In this document: one piece after another, positions 6,005 to 14,140 of the stretch
Layout: every line of letters begins with the position of its first letter
Position numbering within the stretch: position 1 is the stretch's first letter
From: Verrucomicrobiales bacterium
GTDB taxonomy: Bacteria > Verrucomicrobiota > Verrucomicrobiia > Verrucomicrobiales > DEV007
Direction: 5' to 3'
DNA length: 39,105 nucleotides
Assembly: GCA_029213195.1 (NCBI GenBank)
Contig: JARGNI010000047.1
Location: 1 to 39,105, forward strand
The notes under the pieces: generated by a model
What the model saw: the letters and a program-made list of their open reading frames with translations, nothing else
Database searches by the model: none
What the model was told of the DNA's origin: nothing
Program-made: the position numbers and the translations under genes

Positions 6005-6210
6005 GACTGCCTTATTCCTTTCTGTCTCTGGAATTCTATCGAGTGAGCCGCTGGGGATTGGGATAAGAATGGCGATCCGATAGGGGGGATGAAGGTTGCG
6101 AAAAGTTCTGTGACGTTTTTGCACGATTTGTATTGCCTTTCCCTTCTGAAATCGATTTTCTATCGGCCAGCCATTTCCTCAGGGAGGTGGCCCTACGACT
6201 TTTACATTCT

Positions 6211-7044
6211 ATGAAGAACCTCCTTCCATTGTCACTCGTCACACTCGCGATCACTCTACTGACCGGCTTCGGCCCTCTCCAAGCCCAAGACGATTTCGAT
6301 CTTTCTCTTCCCGGTGAGGAAGCGGAAGCAGCTCCCGCAGCACCGGCCCCTGCTTCCGGCGGGGACACGGAGGGAACCGCCACAGCAGGAGATGTCAATC
6401 TGTTGGACATGATCAAGGCTGGCGGTTGGTCGATGTGGGTCCTCGGGACTTTCTCCTTCGCGGTGATCGGACTCCTTATCTACTGCATCATTGATCTGCA
6501 AAAAAAGAACTTCCACCCCGATGAACTGATCGCCGCGATCGGTCCGGACATGGACGCGGCCAATTTCGAGGCCGCTGCCCACAAAGCGCAGACTTCCGAC
6601 AACTGCCTCGGGCGCGTCATGCAGGCGGCGATTCACTATATCGCTGACCGTGGCTACGAAGTGCTCGACTCCGAGAAGCTGGAAGAGACGATGGCGGCTG
6701 CTTCGCGAAAATTCAATCGTGGACGAGTTCGCACCATCAACTATTTCTCCATCATCGCCCAGGCGGCCCCGATGATGGGACTGCTGGGAACCGTTTCCGG
6801 AATGATCGGGGCGTTCGCCAAGTTGAGCCAGGGCGGGACGGGAGATCCTTCGGCATTTGCAGGAAACATCTCGGAGGCCCTCATCACCACGGCGACCGGA
6901 CTGGTCGTCGCCCTTCCTGCCATTTTCTGCTACTTCATCTTTCGCGATCGACTCCAGGGCTTGGTTGCCGAGACGGATGAAGAGGCGGAGGAGCTGATCA
7001 ATCGCCTCCGGCGGACGGTCACCGAGTATTCGGAAGAAGCTTAA
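6211..7044 (+). CDS. exbB: ExbB/TolQ/MotA-type proton channel subunit with signal peptide
   Basis: This 277-residue protein opens with a cleavable signal peptide (MKNLLPLSLVTLAITLL, cleavage probably after LQAQ) and an Ala/Pro/Glu-rich exported stretch. Three transmembrane helices follow: about residues 72-95 (WVLGTFSFAVIGLLIYC), 176-205 and 220-250. The last two carry the family signatures APMMGLLGTVSGMIGAF and ISEALITTATGLVVALP, which line the ion path in ExbB and TolQ. ExbB forms a pentamer around ExbD helices and turns proton flow into motion of a TonB- or TolA-like partner. Classical E. coli ExbB and TolQ lack a signal peptide; the form seen here is common in Verrucomicrobiota and related phyla. 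The ATG at 6211 is chosen because the signal peptide starts there; an upstream in-frame start would add non-signal sequence. It is the first gene of a six-gene operon; the next gene begins 18 bases after its stop. Confidence 0.93.
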   Translation: MKNLLPLSLVTLAITLLTGFGPLQAQDDFDLSLPGEEAEAAPAAPAPASGGDTEGTATAGDVNLLDMIKAGGWSMWVLGTFSFAVIGLLIYCIIDLQKKNFHPDELIAAIGPDMDAANFEAAAHKAQTSDNCLGRVMQAAIHYIADRGYEVLDSEKLEETMAAASRKFNRGRVRTINYFSIIAQAAPMMGLLGTVSGMIGAFAKLSQGGTGDPSAFAGNISEALITTATGLVVALPAIFCYFIFRDRLQGLVAETDEEAEELINRLRRTVTEYSEEA

Positions 7045-7062
7045 GCCTCCTCACCGAACGTC

Positions 7063-7485
7063 ATGGCAAAAGAAAACGATCTGTTCGCGGGACCCGGCCT
7101 CAAGGCCGATCTCTCGCCTATGATCGATCTTGTCTTCCTGCTCCTGATCTTTTTCATGGTGGCAGCGAATATCATCACCTTTCCCAAGGACCCGAACGTA
7201 ATCATCCCAGTTGCGAGTGATGCGAAAGTTCCCAAGCTTGTCGAGGGACGAATCGTCATCAATATCTACATCGACGGAACGATCAAGGACGTTGAAGGTA
7301 ACACGCTCTCGACCGAGCAACTCACTCAGAAAGTTTCCCAGGTGAAGGCGGGTAATCCCAATGCCCGATTGCATTTGCGAGCGCACCGTGGGGTCCCCTA
7401 CAAGCACATCCAGGAGGTCAGCCGAGCTTCGGCTGCCGGAGGGGTGCCGACCATCATTTTTTCCAGTTACCAAACCTCGAAGTAG
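7063..7485 (+). CDS. exbD: ExbD/TolR-type subunit, first copy
   Basis: This 140-residue protein has the ExbD layout: a short cytosolic N-terminus, one transmembrane helix with the proton-carrying Asp (DLSPMIDLVFLLLIFFMV), and a periplasmic domain of about 95 residues. ExbD sits inside the ExbB pentamer. It differs from the copy directly downstream in the helix and over the whole periplasmic domain, so the two are not a recent duplication. Its periplasmic domain (EGRIVINIYIDGTIKD, then LRAHRGVPYKHIQEV) follows the usual ExbD/TolR fold pattern of a strand-rich half and a helix. The stop is 3 bases before the next ATG, so translation is probably coupled. Confidence 0.93.
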   Translation: MAKENDLFAGPGLKADLSPMIDLVFLLLIFFMVAANIITFPKDPNVIIPVASDAKVPKLVEGRIVINIYIDGTIKDVEGNTLSTEQLTQKVSQVKAGNPNARLHLRAHRGVPYKHIQEVSRASAAGGVPTIIFSSYQTSK

Positions 7486-7488
7486 GAA

Positions 7489-7926
7489 ATGCCCAATACC
7501 GATCCATTTGGAGGAGAAGAAGAACCAGAGATGGATATCAGTCCGCTGATTGATGTCGCCTTCCTGCTCCTGATCTACTTTCTCGTGACGACGACTCTCC
7601 AGAAATCCGAAGCGGATTTGAGTCTCGTCCTGCCGGGGGTGGAGGCCGAGGACAGCAAGGAGGTCAAGATCGACCAGATGCTGGTTCGTATCGATGCCGA
7701 CGGTTCCGTCATCGTCAATGAGGAGGTTTCCGATTCGGATCCCAACGATCGAGACCTTCCGAACCTGACGGAGCGCCTGACCCGTTACTCGGCGAGTGCA
7801 CAGATCGCGAATACCGAAACACAGGTCATTATCGACTGCGATCCGGAAGCGGTCGGTCAAAGATTCATCGACGTATTGAACGTTTGTGAGAAATCTGATA
7901 TCAAGAACGTCAGCCTTGCGAACTGA
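7489..7926 (+). CDS. exbD: ExbD/TolR-type subunit, second copy
   Basis: This 145-residue protein is a second, clearly different ExbD-like subunit. The helix motif is almost textbook (EMDISPLIDVAFLLLIYFL) with the Asp that carries protons. The periplasmic domain (EVKIDQMLVRIDADGSVIVNEEV, RYSASAQIANTETQVIIDCDP) has the fold expected of ExbD/TolR. The ribosome binding sequence TAGGAA overlaps the stop of the preceding gene, which supports coupled translation and a fixed ratio. One ExbB with two distinct ExbD proteins recalls the Myxococcus AglR-AglQ-AglS motor, in which the two ExbD-like proteins have separate roles. Whether the two copies form a mixed dimer here cannot be seen. Confidence 0.93.
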   Translation: MPNTDPFGGEEEPEMDISPLIDVAFLLLIYFLVTTTLQKSEADLSLVLPGVEAEDSKEVKIDQMLVRIDADGSVIVNEEVSDSDPNDRDLPNLTERLTRYSASAQIANTETQVIIDCDPEAVGQRFIDVLNVCEKSDIKNVSLAN

Positions 7927-7935
7927 ATAGCCAAA

Positions 7936-9561
7936 ATGACAGAGATAGAAACCTCCCTTAGAACCGCTCTCCAGGCCCACCCCGAAGACTGGTCGGTCCG
8001 GATGCTTGTTGTCGACAAAGCGCTCGAGCGGGATGCTCGAGAAGAAGCTGCCGCTGTCCTGCTCGAGGCTCCAACTCCTCCGACTTCCGATGAAGATCTG
8101 CAACGGCTTGTCGAGATCGCCGAAGAGCGCAGCCACGATCTCGTCCACACTTTCGTGCAGCAGAATCCTGCGAATGCCTATGGGCACCAGCTGCTCGCGG
8201 CCATCCTCGAGTGGATGGGAGAGGCAGAAAAGTCCCAGCAGCACCTTTCGGTAGCCGAGGCCCTGGGAGCGGCTCCGCCGGAAGTTCACGTTATCGAGGA
8301 AACTGATCATGCCATCCCTGTGGCTGAGCATGTCGAGGAGGAGCAGCCTCCGCCTCCCCCACCTATTTCGGATTTTGCAGCAGTAGGCGAGCCTGGCCCA
8401 CCCGCTCCGCCGCCCATCATGGAGCCGACCTTTGCAGAAGAAGAGTTTGCTTCTCACCCCGAGACAGGAGGACTCACTCTCGAGGATCTTGCTCCGGTGG
8501 AACCTCCCAAGCAGCGAGGAAAGAAGGCGACCGCCGTCATGGCTGCCGTGATTTTTCACTTCGCCATTTTCCTGATCGCCGCCCTGGTCGTCATCCTCCC
8601 GCCCATGAAGGATGATCCGGAAATCGTCGCGGCGATTGCTCCGACCGTTCAGAAGAAGCAGGAGATGCAGAAGAAGAACGTGGTCAAGCAGACGAAGAAA
8701 ACTTCTGCTTCGGCTGCGGCTGCCGCACCTCTTGCCCAATTGATGCGTGCCAATGCGGTTGCGAAAATTGCTCTCCCCAATGTGACGAAAACCAGCAAGG
8801 GCCCTCTTGGAATCGGGGATGCTGATTTCGGAGGAGGTGGATTTGGTTCTGGCGGAGGCGGAATGGGAAGCGGAGCTTCTTTCTTCGGGGGAACTTCCAC
8901 CGGTCGACGGTTTCTTTTCGTGATCGACCACTCGGGTTCAATGAGGAAGAACCAGGTCGAGCTCCGCAACAACGAACTTGAGAAAGCACTGAAGTCTCTC
9001 AAGGGAGTCCAGTATCAGGTTCTTCTTTTCGCGGGCGGAGCCTACTACGCGTCGAAGGGATGGTCTTTGAAGTCTCAAGGAAACAGCCTGAATACGGCAA
9101 TCGGACCCAAGGGGAAATGGGACTTTGTCAGTGTCGGGGGTGCGGCAAATTTCGATTACAAGGGACCTGCGGAGAAACTGCCCAAGGCGGAGTGGCTTTC
9201 TACGACTCCCAGTAATGTGAAAAGGACGATGGACATCGTCGAGAAGGATCGTCTCTTCTACGGTACCGATTGGGGATTGGCTCTCGATATCGGGCATCGC
9301 ATGGATCCTCCGCCCGACGTCATTTTCTTCATGTCGGATGGAACAGGCGGAAACAGCCCACCTCCCATCCTGGAGATCAATCGCAAGTTCGGTCGGCCTC
9401 CGATCAATACCGTGGCAATGCAGACGACGCAGGGGATCCAGCAATTTGCGGAGATCGCCAAGCAGACCAAAGGAAGTTTTACGATTGTGGATAAAGATGG
9501 GAAGCCCATCGACGGATTCGACTACATGAAGAATCCCGGAAAATTCAAAGGGCGTCTCTAG
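7936..9561 (+). CDS. TPR / TonB-like helix / von Willebrand A domain protein
   Basis: This 541-residue protein appears to be the transducer of the operon. Residues 1-115 are helical and TPR-like (cytosolic). Residues 130-195 are acidic and Pro-rich with runs of Pro. A basic stretch (KQRGKK) then leads into a transmembrane helix at about 200-221 (VMAAVIFHFAIFLIAAL). This resembles the TolA/TonB helix, including the intramembrane His (His208) where TolA has S-x-x-x-H; the Ser is Ala here. Beyond the membrane come a Lys/Ala-rich segment, a Gly-rich linker (about 293-320) and a vWA domain. That domain has a complete MIDAS metal site: Asp331-x-Ser333-x-Ser335, a conserved Thr in YGTDWGLALD and the Asp of FFMSDGTGG. 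vWA domains bind protein ligands through a divalent metal. It lies 9 bases after the second exbD and 13 before the next gene. The domain reading is sure; the role as an energy transducer is inferred. Confidence 0.88.
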   Translation: MTEIETSLRTALQAHPEDWSVRMLVVDKALERDAREEAAAVLLEAPTPPTSDEDLQRLVEIAEERSHDLVHTFVQQNPANAYGHQLLAAILEWMGEAEKSQQHLSVAEALGAAPPEVHVIEETDHAIPVAEHVEEEQPPPPPPISDFAAVGEPGPPAPPPIMEPTFAEEEFASHPETGGLTLEDLAPVEPPKQRGKKATAVMAAVIFHFAIFLIAALVVILPPMKDDPEIVAAIAPTVQKKQEMQKKNVVKQTKKTSASAAAAAPLAQLMRANAVAKIALPNVTKTSKGPLGIGDADFGGGGFGSGGGGMGSGASFFGGTSTGRRFLFVIDHSGSMRKNQVELRNNELEKALKSLKGVQYQVLLFAGGAYYASKGWSLKSQGNSLNTAIGPKGKWDFVSVGGAANFDYKGPAEKLPKAEWLSTTPSNVKRTMDIVEKDRLFYGTDWGLALDIGHRMDPPPDVIFFMSDGTGGNSPPPILEINRKFGRPPINTVAMQTTQGIQQFAEIAKQTKGSFTIVDKDGKPIDGFDYMKNPGKFKGRL

Positions 9562-9574
9562 GGTAGGAGAGAGA

Positions 9575-12475
9575 ATGATGGTGGAAAGATTGTATCGAAC
9601 CGGTGGACTGCCGGGGCTATTCTTGGCGGGTGTCATCGCGTTGACGACCCTTCTGGGGGAGTCAATTCAGGGGCAGGAAGAAGATCTTCTCGACCCGGTG
9701 GTGGCTTACAACAAGACGATCAGCGCGATCGACTTGGAGCAGTGGGACCGCGCGCTGAAAATCACGGACGGAATCATCGCCGAATATGATTCCATCGCGA
9801 TGAAGCGTTTTGGTCCGGTGTTCGGACATTTTCACTTTCTACGGGGGCTTGCTCTGCTCGGAAAGAAAAATTACGACAGTGCGATCAAGTCCTTTGATGC
9901 CTGCTACACCAAGTACGACAACAAGTTTCTCGAGCAGATGAACGACGAGGAACGGCAGGGATTGCTTCCCAATCTGTTCCGCAATTCCGCCCTCGTGCAA
10001 TGGGCCAACTCCGAGATGCGTCGGGAAAAGTATGCCGCCGCCGCCAAGCTCTACGAAAAGATCCTTGTCGAAGCCAAGAACGACAAGAAGGTCAACCTCG
10101 TCTACGTGGGGGTAAACCTGGGTCGTTGCTACCTCAAGGCGGGCCAGTTGCAAAAGGGATACGACTTCATGGTCAAACCCCTCTCGAACGAAAATCTCAG
10201 CGATGGGCTCCGCGAGACGATCTTCATGGTCATGGCCGAGGACTGGAGCACCGAGGTGGAGTTTCCACCGACTCGGTCGTTCATTCAGAAATTCAGCAAT
10301 GTTGTCGATCAGGATCCCTTCATCGAGCGATATGAAAGAAATGAGCGGTTCCAGTACCTGGCCCAGCTCGCCCTCCAGAACAAGGATATCGTGCGTTCTC
10401 TCGCCTGGTACGAGCGGATGGTGAATCCGCGACTGCTCGCTCCCGAGTTGCAGCAACAATACGCGAGCCTGGAGAATCGCCCCGTCCCGGAACAATTGGA
10501 GGAGAAAAAGAAAGAGGCGCTCGCGGAACTTCGGAAGCAGATCCGGGATCTCGACACGCAGTATCTGCAGATCCTCAATGGAGTGGGCTCCAACCACTTC
10601 ATGATGCAAAACTATCCGGCAAGCTATGTCGCCTTTTCCCGCTTGTCGGACCAGGCAGGAAAAACCCACAAACAGCGTCCCGTTTTCCTCCACAATGCCG
10701 TTGTTTCTGCCGCCCAGGTGGAACTCTGGAAGGAGGCCTATGTGTATGGTCGTCAGTTTCTCGATGAATTTCCCGATCATGAGCTGAAGCCAGGGGTCGC
10801 TCGTGTGCTCGTCGAGGTGCTCTTCCTGCGCGAGGAGTATCAGGATTCCTACGATGTCTCCGGCGAGGTTCGTCAAAGCATGGACCCGGGGGAAGAGATT
10901 CGAGACATCCCCGACTTCGTCTATGGAGCGTCTGCGTTTCACCTGGGGCACATCGAGGAAGCCGAGACCGAGCTCTCCAGTTATTTCCAAGTCTATCCCA
11001 ACGGGACCAGGAAAGAGTTGGCCCATTTCTTTCTCGGTTTGGCGAAGGTTCGTCTCGCGAAGTGGCAGGAAGCTGCTGACACGCTGAATTCCTTTCTCGA
11101 AACCTACCCGACTTCGACACTCGTGCCCACGGTCCTTTACCAATGCGCGATGAGTGAATTCATGATCGACCTTCCCGAGGAGGCGTTGGTCAAAGTCAAC
11201 CGGGTCCACTCGGAGTTTCCGAATATGGAGGTCGCTCCTCCCTGTTGGAATCTCAAAGGCGACATTCTCGCGTCGCAGGGGGCCGAGTTTCTCGAGGTGG
11301 AGCCATGCTATCTGAACGGCCGCGATGGCGGTCGGGAAATGGGGCAGCCTGACACGACAGCCTACGCGTTGTGGCAATTGCTCGTGCAGACAGTCGAACT
11401 CTCCCAGTGGGAGAAGGCGGCGCAGCACTACCGGGAGTTCCAGGCAGATCATGCCGAGTCCGATTTCCGATACGATGTTCTTGTCACCGCGCTGCCCATG
11501 CTGGTGGAGGAGGGGCGGACCGAGGAAGGCCTTACAAAACTGAGAGATGTTGTTTGGGAAAATCGGGAAGATCCCGAGTCGGTCGTCCTTGCGGAGATGT
11601 TCGGAAGCTATGTCGACTTCCTCAAGGAAAACTACGATCTCGAAACCCTCCTCGCAGAGTTGGAAGAACTCCAGATGAAACGAGGTTCCTCTGCGGCCCT
11701 CATGGGATGGACCTTGATTGCGAGGGTCGATGCGCTCGAGGAGACCGAGGCGGAGCAGGCCGCGATTGATCAGTATTTCTATCGTCTCGAAGCGGGTTTC
11801 AAACCCGAAGAGCAGAGCAACTATCCCACGGTCCGTCTCGCACGATGGATCTCCGATGTTCGGAAGCGGCCGGAAGAGGCGAAGAAGCTTTACGATTTCA
11901 TTCTCGAGAATCGACCGGGAACCGCGAACTACGAGTATTGCCTCGTCGATGTGGCCCAGATCCAGGCGGCATCCGACGATGCTGCCCAGCGCGAAGAGGC
12001 CATGCAGAAGTTTCAGCGGGTGCTTGCCGAGATCCCGAATGAAGAACTCCAGGAGAAGTCGGTTCTCGGAATGGCGAGGATTCGGACTGAAGAGGAAAAA
12101 TACGACGAGGCCCAGTCCCTCTGGGAAAAATACCTGGAGAACCGCAGTTGGAACCTGGCGCGTCCCGAGGCCAATTACCAGTTGGGCTACTGCATGGATC
12201 AGTTGGGAAATACCGCCGACGCCTTGAAGATTTACGTCAGTGTTTACGCGAACTTCCCCGGCTATCTCGACTGGTCGACTCGAGCCTACCTGCGGACCGC
12301 CGCCATCATGAAGGGAACAGGAGAAGACCTCAAGGCACTCAAGGTCCTCCAGGACATGCTCAAGCGAATGGGACATCATGATCACCCGGGGGTGAAGAGG
12401 GGCAAAGAGCTATTTGTGAAGTGGCGTCGCGAGTTCGAGGCGACCCAGGGGGCAAATCCGTCCGCGAAAGGATAA
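9575..12475 (+). CDS. Large exported TPR-repeat protein
   Basis: This 966-residue protein has an N-terminal signal peptide (hydrophobic LPGLFLAGVIALTTLLG, cleavage near SIQGQ), so it acts in the periplasm or at the outer membrane. The rest is almost entirely helical repeats of TPR type. Recognisable units include FGPVFGHFHFLRGLALLGKK, AHFFLGLAKVRLAKWQEAA and ARPEANYQLGYCMDQLGN. A short Lys/Glu-rich coiled segment lies near residues 305-330. No catalytic motif is seen. Long TPR arrays of this kind bind proteins; BamD and the YbgF/CpoB protein of the Tol system are small relatives in fold. AGGAGAGAG just before the ATG is a good ribosome binding site. Placed between the vWA protein and another exported TPR protein, it is probably a structural partner of the ExbB/ExbD complex. 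Confidence 0.88.
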   Translation: MMVERLYRTGGLPGLFLAGVIALTTLLGESIQGQEEDLLDPVVAYNKTISAIDLEQWDRALKITDGIIAEYDSIAMKRFGPVFGHFHFLRGLALLGKKNYDSAIKSFDACYTKYDNKFLEQMNDEERQGLLPNLFRNSALVQWANSEMRREKYAAAAKLYEKILVEAKNDKKVNLVYVGVNLGRCYLKAGQLQKGYDFMVKPLSNENLSDGLRETIFMVMAEDWSTEVEFPPTRSFIQKFSNVVDQDPFIERYERNERFQYLAQLALQNKDIVRSLAWYERMVNPRLLAPELQQQYASLENRPVPEQLEEKKKEALAELRKQIRDLDTQYLQILNGVGSNHFMMQNYPASYVAFSRLSDQAGKTHKQRPVFLHNAVVSAAQVELWKEAYVYGRQFLDEFPDHELKPGVARVLVEVLFLREEYQDSYDVSGEVRQSMDPGEEIRDIPDFVYGASAFHLGHIEEAETELSSYFQVYPNGTRKELAHFFLGLAKVRLAKWQEAADTLNSFLETYPTSTLVPTVLYQCAMSEFMIDLPEEALVKVNRVHSEFPNMEVAPPCWNLKGDILASQGAEFLEVEPCYLNGRDGGREMGQPDTTAYALWQLLVQTVELSQWEKAAQHYREFQADHAESDFRYDVLVTALPMLVEEGRTEEGLTKLRDVVWENREDPESVVLAEMFGSYVDFLKENYDLETLLAELEELQMKRGSSAALMGWTLIARVDALEETEAEQAAIDQYFYRLEAGFKPEEQSNYPTVRLARWISDVRKRPEEAKKLYDFILENRPGTANYEYCLVDVAQIQAASDDAAQREEAMQKFQRVLAEIPNEELQEKSVLGMARIRTEEEKYDEAQSLWEKYLENRSWNLARPEANYQLGYCMDQLGNTADALKIYVSVYANFPGYLDWSTRAYLRTAAIMKGTGEDLKALKVLQDMLKRMGHHDHPGVKRGKELFVKWRREFEATQGANPSAKG

Positions 12476-12479
12476 TACG

Positions 12480-14099
12480 ATGAAGAGAAGGAATGATTTC
12501 TGGTTGCGAGGTGGGGTCGTTGCCTTGTGTTCCCTCGCGGGAGTAGCGAAGGCGGAGCTTGCCACTATCTATCTGAAGTCGGGAGAGGCCCGCACCGTGG
12601 AACTTGTGAACGCGGACCGGGGACAGATTTCGTGGAAAGACAGTGCGTCAGCGCGGGAGGTGAAGCAGACGTTTCGCAGTGATGTCGACTACGTCGTTTT
12701 CCCGACGACCCCCGAGTGGCGCGAAGCCGAGGAGCTTCGCGAGTCGGGAAAGTTTGCCGAGGCCATTCCGGCCTACCAGAAAGTCGTCGCAAGTCCGGCG
12801 ACCCATTTCTATCCTTTTCCCGGAAACTACACGTCTCTTGCGATCCAGCGGTTGCTCCAATGTTATCGCAACCTCATGGATGTTCAGAGGATTGCCCAGC
12901 AGGCGGCTGCCGTGCGCCAGGAGTTGACCAACCTGCCTCCTGGCCTCCGGGAAGTCGATCCTGCGAATCTTGCCTGGGTAGCCATGGCAGAAAAGAAATG
13001 GGATGTGATGCTGGCGGAGGCCAACGAGGTCGACCCACCGACTCCCGAGTCCTTCTTTCTCAAAGGGCGTGCTCTCGAGGAAATGGGGAAAAAGGCGGAA
13101 GCGATCCAGGCTTTTGCCGGAGTTTACACTTTGAATTTCGGGGGCAACCTGCTCCTCACGCAGTCCGCTCTCGAGCGATCGGCAGCCTTGCTGTCTCAGC
13201 TGGGTATCCCCGAGCGGGAAATCGAGTTGATCGCCCAACTCAAGTTGTATCGGGATCTCTTCGGAAATGGGGATCTCTGGGAGGGAGCTTCGGAAAAACT
13301 GAAACAGCTGGCAGACGGCGAAATCCAGACTCTCGGCGAGCCGGAGGGGGAAATGGTGGCCAAACCAGCGTCCAGTGGCGGGACGGTCATCGAGGAAGGT
13401 GGAACCGGAGCGGTCACGGCGGATGCGAATTCACGAAACTACCTTCTCCCTCAGGACCTGCCCGAGCGAGCCGTGCTGATCAATGGCAAGAAGGCAAACG
13501 ATGCCGTCGTCGTCACCAGTGGCGCTGCGAAAGGGGACAATGGCTACCTGTTCGATGGAACGGGGGGCGGTGGTCTTCTCGTCAATGGGATCGATGCTTC
13601 TCAGCTCGTTCTTCGTTTGCGACTTCGGTTCGTTCCGGAGAATCCGGATGCGGCCCTTTTTGAAATGAACGAAGGCAAAGGAGGTGGCATGGGGATCTAC
13701 CTCGAAGGAGGAAAGGTCATGCTGGTATGGGCTCCGAAAGGAAAGGCCAAGAAAACGCACACGATCGGCAAGGTGCCCGTCGGTTCTCCTTCGACCATCG
13801 ATTTTCGCGCAGGCCGTCTCGGACAAAAGGGGAATCTGGTGGTGACCCTGAATGGAGAGCAAACCAAGATCGAGACGCCTTCAGCGGGGCTTAATCTGGC
13901 AAAAAGCCTGACCGCCTCGGTTGGGGATGCGAAAAAGAATGCCGGGGATCCCGTTCTCGATGGAAAGAATCATCCGCCCTTCGAGGGCGAGATGGAGCAT
14001 GTCTCGATCGCTACAGGCAAATCCGTTGCCGAGATCACCGACATGGAGATCTCTCAGTTCGGAAAGCCGCTGCAACTGACCGTCTCGCCCGCAGGGTAA
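12480..14099 (+). CDS. Exported TPR protein with C-terminal LamG-like domain
   Basis: This 539-residue protein begins with a signal peptide (RGGVVALCSLAGVAKAE). A small beta domain (IYLKSGEARTVELVNADRGQISWKD) follows, then a TPR region at about residues 80-255 (EWREAEELRESGKFAEAIPAYQKV). A variable Gly/Glu linker leads to a beta-sandwich C-terminus (about 325-535). There, short strands such as GYLFDGTGGGGLLV, ALFEMNEGKGGGMGIYLEG and NLVVTLNGEQTKIE suggest a concanavalin/LamG-like fold. That fold often binds glycans or proteins; the assignment rests on pattern only. Its ribosome site AAAGGA lies in the last codons of the preceding gene, 7 bases before the ATG, so the two TPR proteins are translationally coupled. 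It is the last gene of the operon and is followed by a strong terminator. Confidence 0.82.
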   Translation: MKRRNDFWLRGGVVALCSLAGVAKAELATIYLKSGEARTVELVNADRGQISWKDSASAREVKQTFRSDVDYVVFPTTPEWREAEELRESGKFAEAIPAYQKVVASPATHFYPFPGNYTSLAIQRLLQCYRNLMDVQRIAQQAAAVRQELTNLPPGLREVDPANLAWVAMAEKKWDVMLAEANEVDPPTPESFFLKGRALEEMGKKAEAIQAFAGVYTLNFGGNLLLTQSALERSAALLSQLGIPEREIELIAQLKLYRDLFGNGDLWEGASEKLKQLADGEIQTLGEPEGEMVAKPASSGGTVIEEGGTGAVTADANSRNYLLPQDLPERAVLINGKKANDAVVVTSGAAKGDNGYLFDGTGGGGLLVNGIDASQLVLRLRLRFVPENPDAALFEMNEGKGGGMGIYLEGGKVMLVWAPKGKAKKTHTIGKVPVGSPSTIDFRAGRLGQKGNLVVTLNGEQTKIETPSAGLNLAKSLTASVGDAKKNAGDPVLDGKNHPPFEGEMEHVSIATGKSVAEITDMEISQFGKPLQLTVSPAG

Positions 14100-14105
14100 G
14101 CTGGA

Positions 14106-14140
14106 TCTGTTCTCGTAGAGAACAGACTGCCTCTTTTTTT
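14106..14140 (+). terminator. Rho-independent terminator of the exbB-exbD-vWA-TPR operon
   Basis: A perfect 9-bp stem TCTGTTCTC (14106-14114) / GAGAACAGA (14118-14126) with a GTA loop is followed, after CTGCCTC, by seven Ts (14134-14140). It begins 6 bases after the last stop codon. Confidence 0.9.

Follow-up and report, generated by a model that had tools for sequence, protein, structure and literature searches.

A six-gene ExbB/ExbD operon with a vWA force-transducer candidate, a bridge between PVC vWA transducers and Akkermansia MUL1-type loci

Known systems and the six-gene operon

In bacteria of the Planctomycetes-Verrucomicrobia-Chlamydiae (PVC) group, force transducers with a von Willebrand factor A (vWA) domain are encoded beside one TolQ, two TolRs and a tetratricopeptide repeat (TPR) gene, and a 2025 paper gives their function as unknown (PMC12204202). 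The helix motif SHLS occurs in "many" of these proteins, hence is not strictly defining, and gliding was raised as a possibility for the class (PMC12204202). The second close system is MUL1 of Akkermansia. MUL genes are reported to be required for the build-up of mucin products within internal compartments (PMC12418764), being needed for, or possibly carrying out, import into these compartments (PMC12418764, PMC12997984), and an association of enzymes with Mul1A has been mentioned (PMC11790493). Here we analyzed a six-gene operon, encoding ExbB, ExbD1, ExbD2, a vWA protein and two exported TPR proteins (TPR1 and TPR2), in a 39,105-nucleotide stretch of DNA from a Verrucomicrobiales bacterium, referred to as the window. 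The locus is a variant of the vWA transducer class published in 2025, with a motor that is sister to those of Akkermansia MUL1-type loci. The new part is this bridge between the two groups; among the open-licence papers listed, none was recognized as connecting MUL1 to vWA transducers. The initial annotation, made from the sequence alone, had supposed that the machine might be undescribed. This does not hold, as the class has been published (PMC12204202) and TPR2, the product of the last gene, is a homologue of Mul1B from Akkermansia.

As in the PVC vWA transducers, one TolQ-like and two different TolR-like genes adjoin the vWA gene, the vWA protein combines a single histidine-bearing helix with a C-terminal vWA fold, a TPR gene co-occurs, and TonB and TolA are absent from the cluster (PMC12204202). 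The window differs in its permuted order, with ExbB first and the TPR genes last, in its second, Mul1B-type TPR gene and in a TPR-like domain before the helix, and unlike many members of the class it keeps only the histidine of SHLS (PMC12204202). With the MUL1-type loci it shares ExbB, ExbD1, ExbD2, a TPR protein of ~1,000 aa and a Mul1B-type protein in the same order, and the ExbBs form sister clades. Whereas the window has a vWA gene inserted, Akkermansia-type loci contain none, and their Mul1B is shorter (347 aa in genome G113), stopping where TPR2 of the window adds a jelly roll. By gene order, the window locus is a sister type of the MUL1-type loci and not a member.

Gene order and kinship of the motor

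The six plus-strand open reading frames (ORFs) occupy positions 6211-14099 with spacings of 18, 3, 9, 13 and 4 bases, and an ORF scan thus reproduced the packed arrangement first annotated. The frame of gene 1 is open over 6133-7044, with its first ATG at 6211. Genes 1 to 3 exceeded the Pfam cut-offs for MotA_ExbB and ExbD, bearing out the proposed motor. The ExbB has a signal-like N terminus followed by an Ala/Pro-rich linker ahead of the first core helix.

Related stretches (loci, genomes and contigs carry the prefixes L, G and C) were classified with hidden Markov models (HMMs) built in this analysis. They were picked for a match to vWA, TPR1 or Mul1B, and outgroup ExbBs by PF01618, so that the counts do not estimate prevalence. 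Repeated copies (L150-L154, L159-L162, L164, L165) were kept out of the counts, L155-L158 and L166 are incomplete, and of this set only L163 was counted. All six genes were contiguous on the same strand in 12 loci, the window and 11 relatives (L120, L122, L123, L126, L128, L129, L163, L233, L234, L235, L248). Because these 11 loci retain the order, the arrangement is not due to chance, and the view that the genes form one unit is supported. L128 has an extra ExbD-like ORF of 159 aa between ExbD2 and vWA. Five genes, with TPR2 not found, were present in L125, L127 (two vWA genes) and L130. Four loci are truncated at contig ends (L118, L119, L121, L124) and two others are cut (L246, L247); in L131 an opposite-strand ORF interrupts, and a TPR1 of that genome lies elsewhere (L245). 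L244 has no vWA gene between ExbD2 and TPR1, where the locus stops. In L236, two vWA genes stand downstream of TPR2 instead of before TPR1. L163 comes from a metagenome-assembled genome titled Akkermansia muciniphila (MiH-14oct19-163); it has a window-type operon with vWA, unlike G113, and the label may be wrong.

A second type, the core without vWA, was found in 16 loci with ExbB, two or three ExbDs, TPR1 and Mul1B/TPR2 in order (L069, L075-L078, L229-L232, L237-L243). L069, on contig C89 of the window's own genome, has three ExbD genes rather than two, as does L239 of a congener. L075 is the locus of G113, in which an M60 peptidase domain is identical over 253/253 residues to PDB 7SCI (Amuc_0627 of A. 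muciniphila); on this ground L075 is treated as the A. muciniphila locus. The third, permuted type is represented in five further families of the phylum by seven loci (L167, L169-L172, L180, L182) with the order TPR1, ExbB, ExbD, ExbD, vWA, except that L180 shows one ExbD by HMM classification and TPR1 of L182 is split. The gene-order search that the initial annotation had proposed thus returned the same order in 11 loci and a permuted one in seven, the latter fitting the arrangement described in PMC12204202.

An ExbB tree of 63 rows resolved two sister clades (96/94), one holding the 15 rows of the window type and the other the 5 rows of the type without vWA (support 100/99 for each). A 75-row tree, which drops five long-branch ExbBs of the first (L008, L209, L200, one of L199, and L074), gave the same topology: 16 rows without vWA (100/99) and 21 vWA-type rows including L244 (100/99) were sisters (100/95, 37 rows). 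Among the motors found here, that of the window is the nearest relative of the one encoded next to mul1B in A. muciniphila. MUL1 itself reportedly includes ExbB and ExbDs, in work attributed to Davey and co-workers from 2023. ExbBs of the permuted loci fell outside both sister clades and did not form one clade. Because of this, and because the root is a midpoint, we can only infer that the vWA gene may have been ancestral and then lost in the MUL1 lineage.

In the ExbD tree (without L180), first-position ExbDs of all three locus types grouped together (26 rows; Shimodaira-Hasegawa approximate likelihood ratio test, SH-aLRT, 99). The second-position ExbDs of the window type and the type without vWA grouped weakly (SH-aLRT 64), with those of the permuted type apart (81). 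The pore aspartate was kept in 53/54 ExbD-like rows, the exception being the extra ORF of L128.

Predicted structure of the vWA and TPR proteins

By sequence, the product of gene 4 matched VWA_2 below the Pfam cut-off (21.6 against 27 bits). In an AlphaFold2 model with a whole-chain mean predicted local distance difference test (pLDDT) of 66.6, residues 322-524 adopt a vWA fold (Z 15.0, root-mean-square deviation (rmsd) 2.3, 148 residues aligned), in agreement with the earlier placement of a vWA protein in the TonB/TolA slot. The model also shows a TPR-like helical domain at residues 1-110, predicted to be cytoplasmic, a disordered linker, the transmembrane helix (196-220) and a low-confidence periplasmic linker (221-320). 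No TonB_C domain was found with Pfam at E 0.01. Searching solved structures by sequence returned nothing useful for this protein or for TPR2.

The helix is predicted to be a single transmembrane segment with a conserved transducer-type histidine, His208. This column holds histidine in 16/17 window-type, 7/7 permuted-type and 24/42 other, stand-alone vWA proteins, as compared to 2/1386 at the remaining helix positions; the sole window-type protein without it is that of L128. Serine at -4 was present in 5/7 permuted-type loci. The DxSxS motif, read by eye from the alignment, was present in 16/17 window-type proteins (missing in the first vWA of L127) and in 3/7 of the permuted type. A vWA-like pair in G113 (L175) has neither the helix histidine nor DxSxS and was rejected as transducers.

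Four further members of this vWA family are encoded in the host genome (L070-L073), on C52 (80% identical), C104, C32 and C17, with no motor gene beside them in the stretches fetched. The C52 copy sits near a phage-integrase gene. The seven neighboring proteins scanned showed no common theme (integrase, CPSase, alpha/beta hydrolase, esterase, MocA-type oxidoreductase, RapA and one without a match).

Genes 5 and 6 matched TPR models in Pfam, gene 6 below cut-off only. Their lengths are as annotated and their N termini appear signal-like by eye, in line with the proposed export. TPR1 could be aligned end to end between the window type and the type without vWA, the window row being 25% and the G113 row 26% identical to L078. 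TPR2 consists of an N-terminal beta domain with TPRs (residues 27-279), the part homologous to Mul1B, and a C-terminal laminin-G-like jelly roll (about 326-536). Profile-profile comparison (hhalign) with Mul1B gave 99.3% and E 7.7e-21 over 243 columns, and we assign TPR2 as a Mul1B homologue outside the curated family NF052542. In 3/7 permuted loci TPR1 and ExbB are separated by a slot gene (276-362 aa); its likeness to TPR2 is weak (3e-05 in L170, 0.012 in L169 and L171) and it is not claimed as Mul1B.

In the AlphaFold2 model of TPR2 (mean pLDDT 79.6), the best fold matches of the jelly roll are neurexin and laminin-G domains (Z 17.6, rmsd 2.2, 156 residues). Domain 4 of the arabinanase AbnA, solved with a sugar, is likewise similar (Z about 15). 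The Foldseek rows included many botulinum-complex chains; we read these as sharing the jelly-roll fold only, and closer comparison puts neurexin/laminin-G first. Eight TPR2 C-terminal pieces were scanned with Pfam. A galactose-binding-like F5/8-C end was over cut-off in L160 and L162 (45.2 and 37.4 against 27.8 bits), LamG was below cut-off in the window, L150 and L154, and the pieces of L151, L155 and L163 had no match. The TPR2 of L165 has no C-terminal region. Such a swappable end of sugar-binding type, as modeled, would fit with glycan handling.

Possible function and genomic setting

From the computed gene order, predicted folds, conserved residues and common descent of the motor with the mul1B-linked motor of Akkermansia, we lean somewhat toward a machine that handles extracellular glycan on a TPR scaffold in the periplasm, with a proton-driven motor exerting pull on this scaffold via the vWA arm. 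ExbB would probably assemble as five copies around a pore that holds ExbD1 and ExbD2 as a heterodimer. Using the proton gradient, ExbB/ExbD would move the vWA protein, which may dock on the motor rim by its single helix (His208) in the fashion of TonB or TolA. The periplasmic vWA domain would in turn pull or remodel the scaffold of TPR1 and TPR2, and by this pulling the machine probably acts on outer-envelope proteins. As for MUL1 of Akkermansia, the load could be glycan from outside the cell or the proteins that handle it. Such a load is suggested because TPR2 is homologous to Mul1B and ends in a fold of sugar-binding type, and kinship of the motor with the mul1B-linked one suggests a role in handling large sugars.

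Several observations weigh against this reading. TPR2 reached 54 bits with NF052542, below the cut-off of 75, and its jelly roll matched LamG by sequence at 19.2 against 22.9 bits; moreover, LamG and galactose-binding folds bind proteins as well. The full SHLS is absent from the window helix, which has A/H/A/V at -4/0/+7/+11, with the offsets of TonB. None of the three annotated flanking genes (rhomboid, phosphopantetheinyl transferase, DEAD helicase) is a carbohydrate gene, and Pfam recognized no outer-membrane protein among the operon products. Akkermansia-type loci have no vWA gene, so that mutants in them say nothing about the vWA arm. Furthermore, no ExbB was found near the best vWA matches in other families (10/10 stretches, L079-L088), nor near vWA relatives in 6/20 stretches of the own family (L132-L137) and 13/20 of another set. 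Since most vWA relatives in other families have no motor nearby, the arm is not tied to a window-type motor.

A broader proposal, which we put forward only tentatively, is that a single proton-driven machine for glycan handling, forming a third class next to Ton and Tol, has Akkermansia MUL1 and the PVC vWA transducers as its two branches. The vWA arm of this machine would be exchangeable: some lineages would encode it in the operon, the MUL1 lineage would have lost it there, and elsewhere in the genome it would have multiplied into free-standing arms, which could draw on a single shared motor. No function is reported for the vWA transducers (PMC12204202), whereas for the MUL genes a phenotype is known from a major gut symbiont. 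If the two are one family, MUL1 would gain a motor-and-arm mechanism and the vWA class a candidate job, each making the other testable. This would bear on how large polysaccharides enter the periplasm of Verrucomicrobiota.

Like TonB-ExbBD, the operon combines these motor families with a single helix bearing histidine; unlike it, there is no TonB_C domain or TonB-dependent receptor in the operon. The absence of TonB noted in the initial annotation thus holds for the operon and not for the genome (5.9 Mb, 95% completeness; the window is contig C101). Among its loci with 11 ExbB-family matches, others carry TonB_C (C87, 39.1 bits; C64, 24.6 bits, equal to the cut-off), four TonB-receptor plug matches were found, and downstream of a third ExbB-ExbD set (L003) is encoded a 245-aa protein that looks TonB-like by eye. 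Because these elements lie elsewhere, the operon is unlikely to be the cell's Ton system.

Tol-Pal-like upkeep of the outer membrane, in which the vWA arm would pull periplasmic TPR proteins and so keep the outer membrane anchored to the wall, without any role for glycan, is the likeliest of the alternatives, although we consider it unlikely. In its favor, TPR1 exceeded the YbgF cut-off (95.7 against 90.1 bits), staying below those of BamD (54.5 bits) and CpoB (35 bits), and the best NCBIfam match of ExbB was TolQ, far under its cut-off. Pal was over its curated cut-off in 0/7 genomes, with weaker matches of up to 80.1 bits in 7/7. The distribution is patchy, unlike that of an essential Tol system: among 33 genomes of the genus, some of them incomplete, a hand tally gave window-type TPR1 (E below 1e-160) in 14, no more than a weaker, C89-like match in 17 and none in 2. 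The Mul1B homology of TPR2 and its swappable end also argue against it.

Less probable still is a motor for gliding or for adhesion to surfaces, similar to Agl-Glt, in which the vWA domain would act like an adhesin. In Myxococcus, AglRQS combines a single TolQ-like protein with two that are TolR-like, and GltG has an FHA/transmembrane/TonB-type make-up (PMC3169522). The likeness seen by the initial annotation stands for the architecture, with one TolQ, two TolRs, large exported TPR proteins and a transducer with a cytoplasmic domain (PMC3169522), and gliding was raised for the vWA class (PMC12204202). By description, however, Agl-Glt has a TonB-type transducer end, outer-membrane Glt parts and separate gene clusters (PMC3169522). 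In the window, vWA stands where the TonB-type end would be, and Pfam detected no such end; it also recognized no outer-membrane Glt protein in the operon, a genome-wide search for these not having been made. The nearest relatives found for the motor are MUL1-type, in a comparison without Agl, Glt or other Myxococcus sequences.

Bat operons pair vWA with TPR proteins, and BatB was among the fold matches of the vWA protein (3ibs, E 7.6e-4), yet an aerotolerance-like Bat complex standing beside a motor by coincidence is very improbable, as MoxR is absent from the six genes, the helix histidine is kept, and locus after locus has the motor genes in one operon with vWA.

The feature coordinates are collected in Table 1. 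The strong terminator first annotated is broadly borne out by a hairpin (14100-14130) and a run of seven T (14134-14140) with a minimum free energy of -22.1 kcal/mol (z -3.86, beating 200/200 shuffles), but was not listed by a simple consensus terminator scan. A promoter scan gave no plus-strand site.

Table 1. Positions of the operon features in the window.
Feature	Positions	Strand	Basis
ExbB/TolQ-like motor subunit, 277 aa	6211..7044	+	Pfam MotA_ExbB 4.1e-27; sister to MUL1-type ExbBs in trees
ExbD1, 140 aa; pore Asp22 codon 7126-7128	7063..7485	+	Pfam ExbD 1.3e-17; first-position ExbD group
ExbD2, 145 aa; pore Asp22 codon 7552-7554	7489..7926	+	Pfam ExbD 1.2e-21; second-position window-type group, SH-aLRT 83
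vWA force-transducer candidate, 541 aa	7936..9561	+	AlphaFold2 model, fold search
Predicted transmembrane helix codons, residues 196-220; His208 at 8557-8559	8521..8595	+	AlphaFold2 model; His column in alignment
DHSGS, the DxSxS part of a MIDAS metal site	8926..8940	+	Alignment
TPR1, 966-aa exported TPR protein	9575..12475	+	TPR and YbgF models; end-to-end alignment with Akkermansia-type ~1,000-aa TPR protein
TPR2, 539 aa	12480..14099	+	NF052542 54 bits; hhalign 99.3%; AlphaFold2 model and fold search
Terminator-like hairpin and T7 run	14100..14140	+	Folding against shuffles

In the family of the host, TPR1 matched 64/74 genomes at E 1e-30 and the vWA query 72/74. Across the phylum, NF052542 at E 0.001 matched 53/288 genomes, 27 of them over cut-off, and 0/14 controls. 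An ExbB-ExbD-ExbD-TPR1-Mul1B cluster was also found in two genomes of the family of G113 outside its genus (L077, L078). MUL1 synteny is said to be absent from aquatic Akkermansiaceae (PMC13174399), a claim against which these two clusters would stand if their hosts are aquatic. In nine genomes of that family outside the genus (G177, G214, G237, G240, G243, G251, G254, G268, G277), NF052542 was over cut-off in 6/9 and TPR1 matched in 9/9, two of which are query rows.

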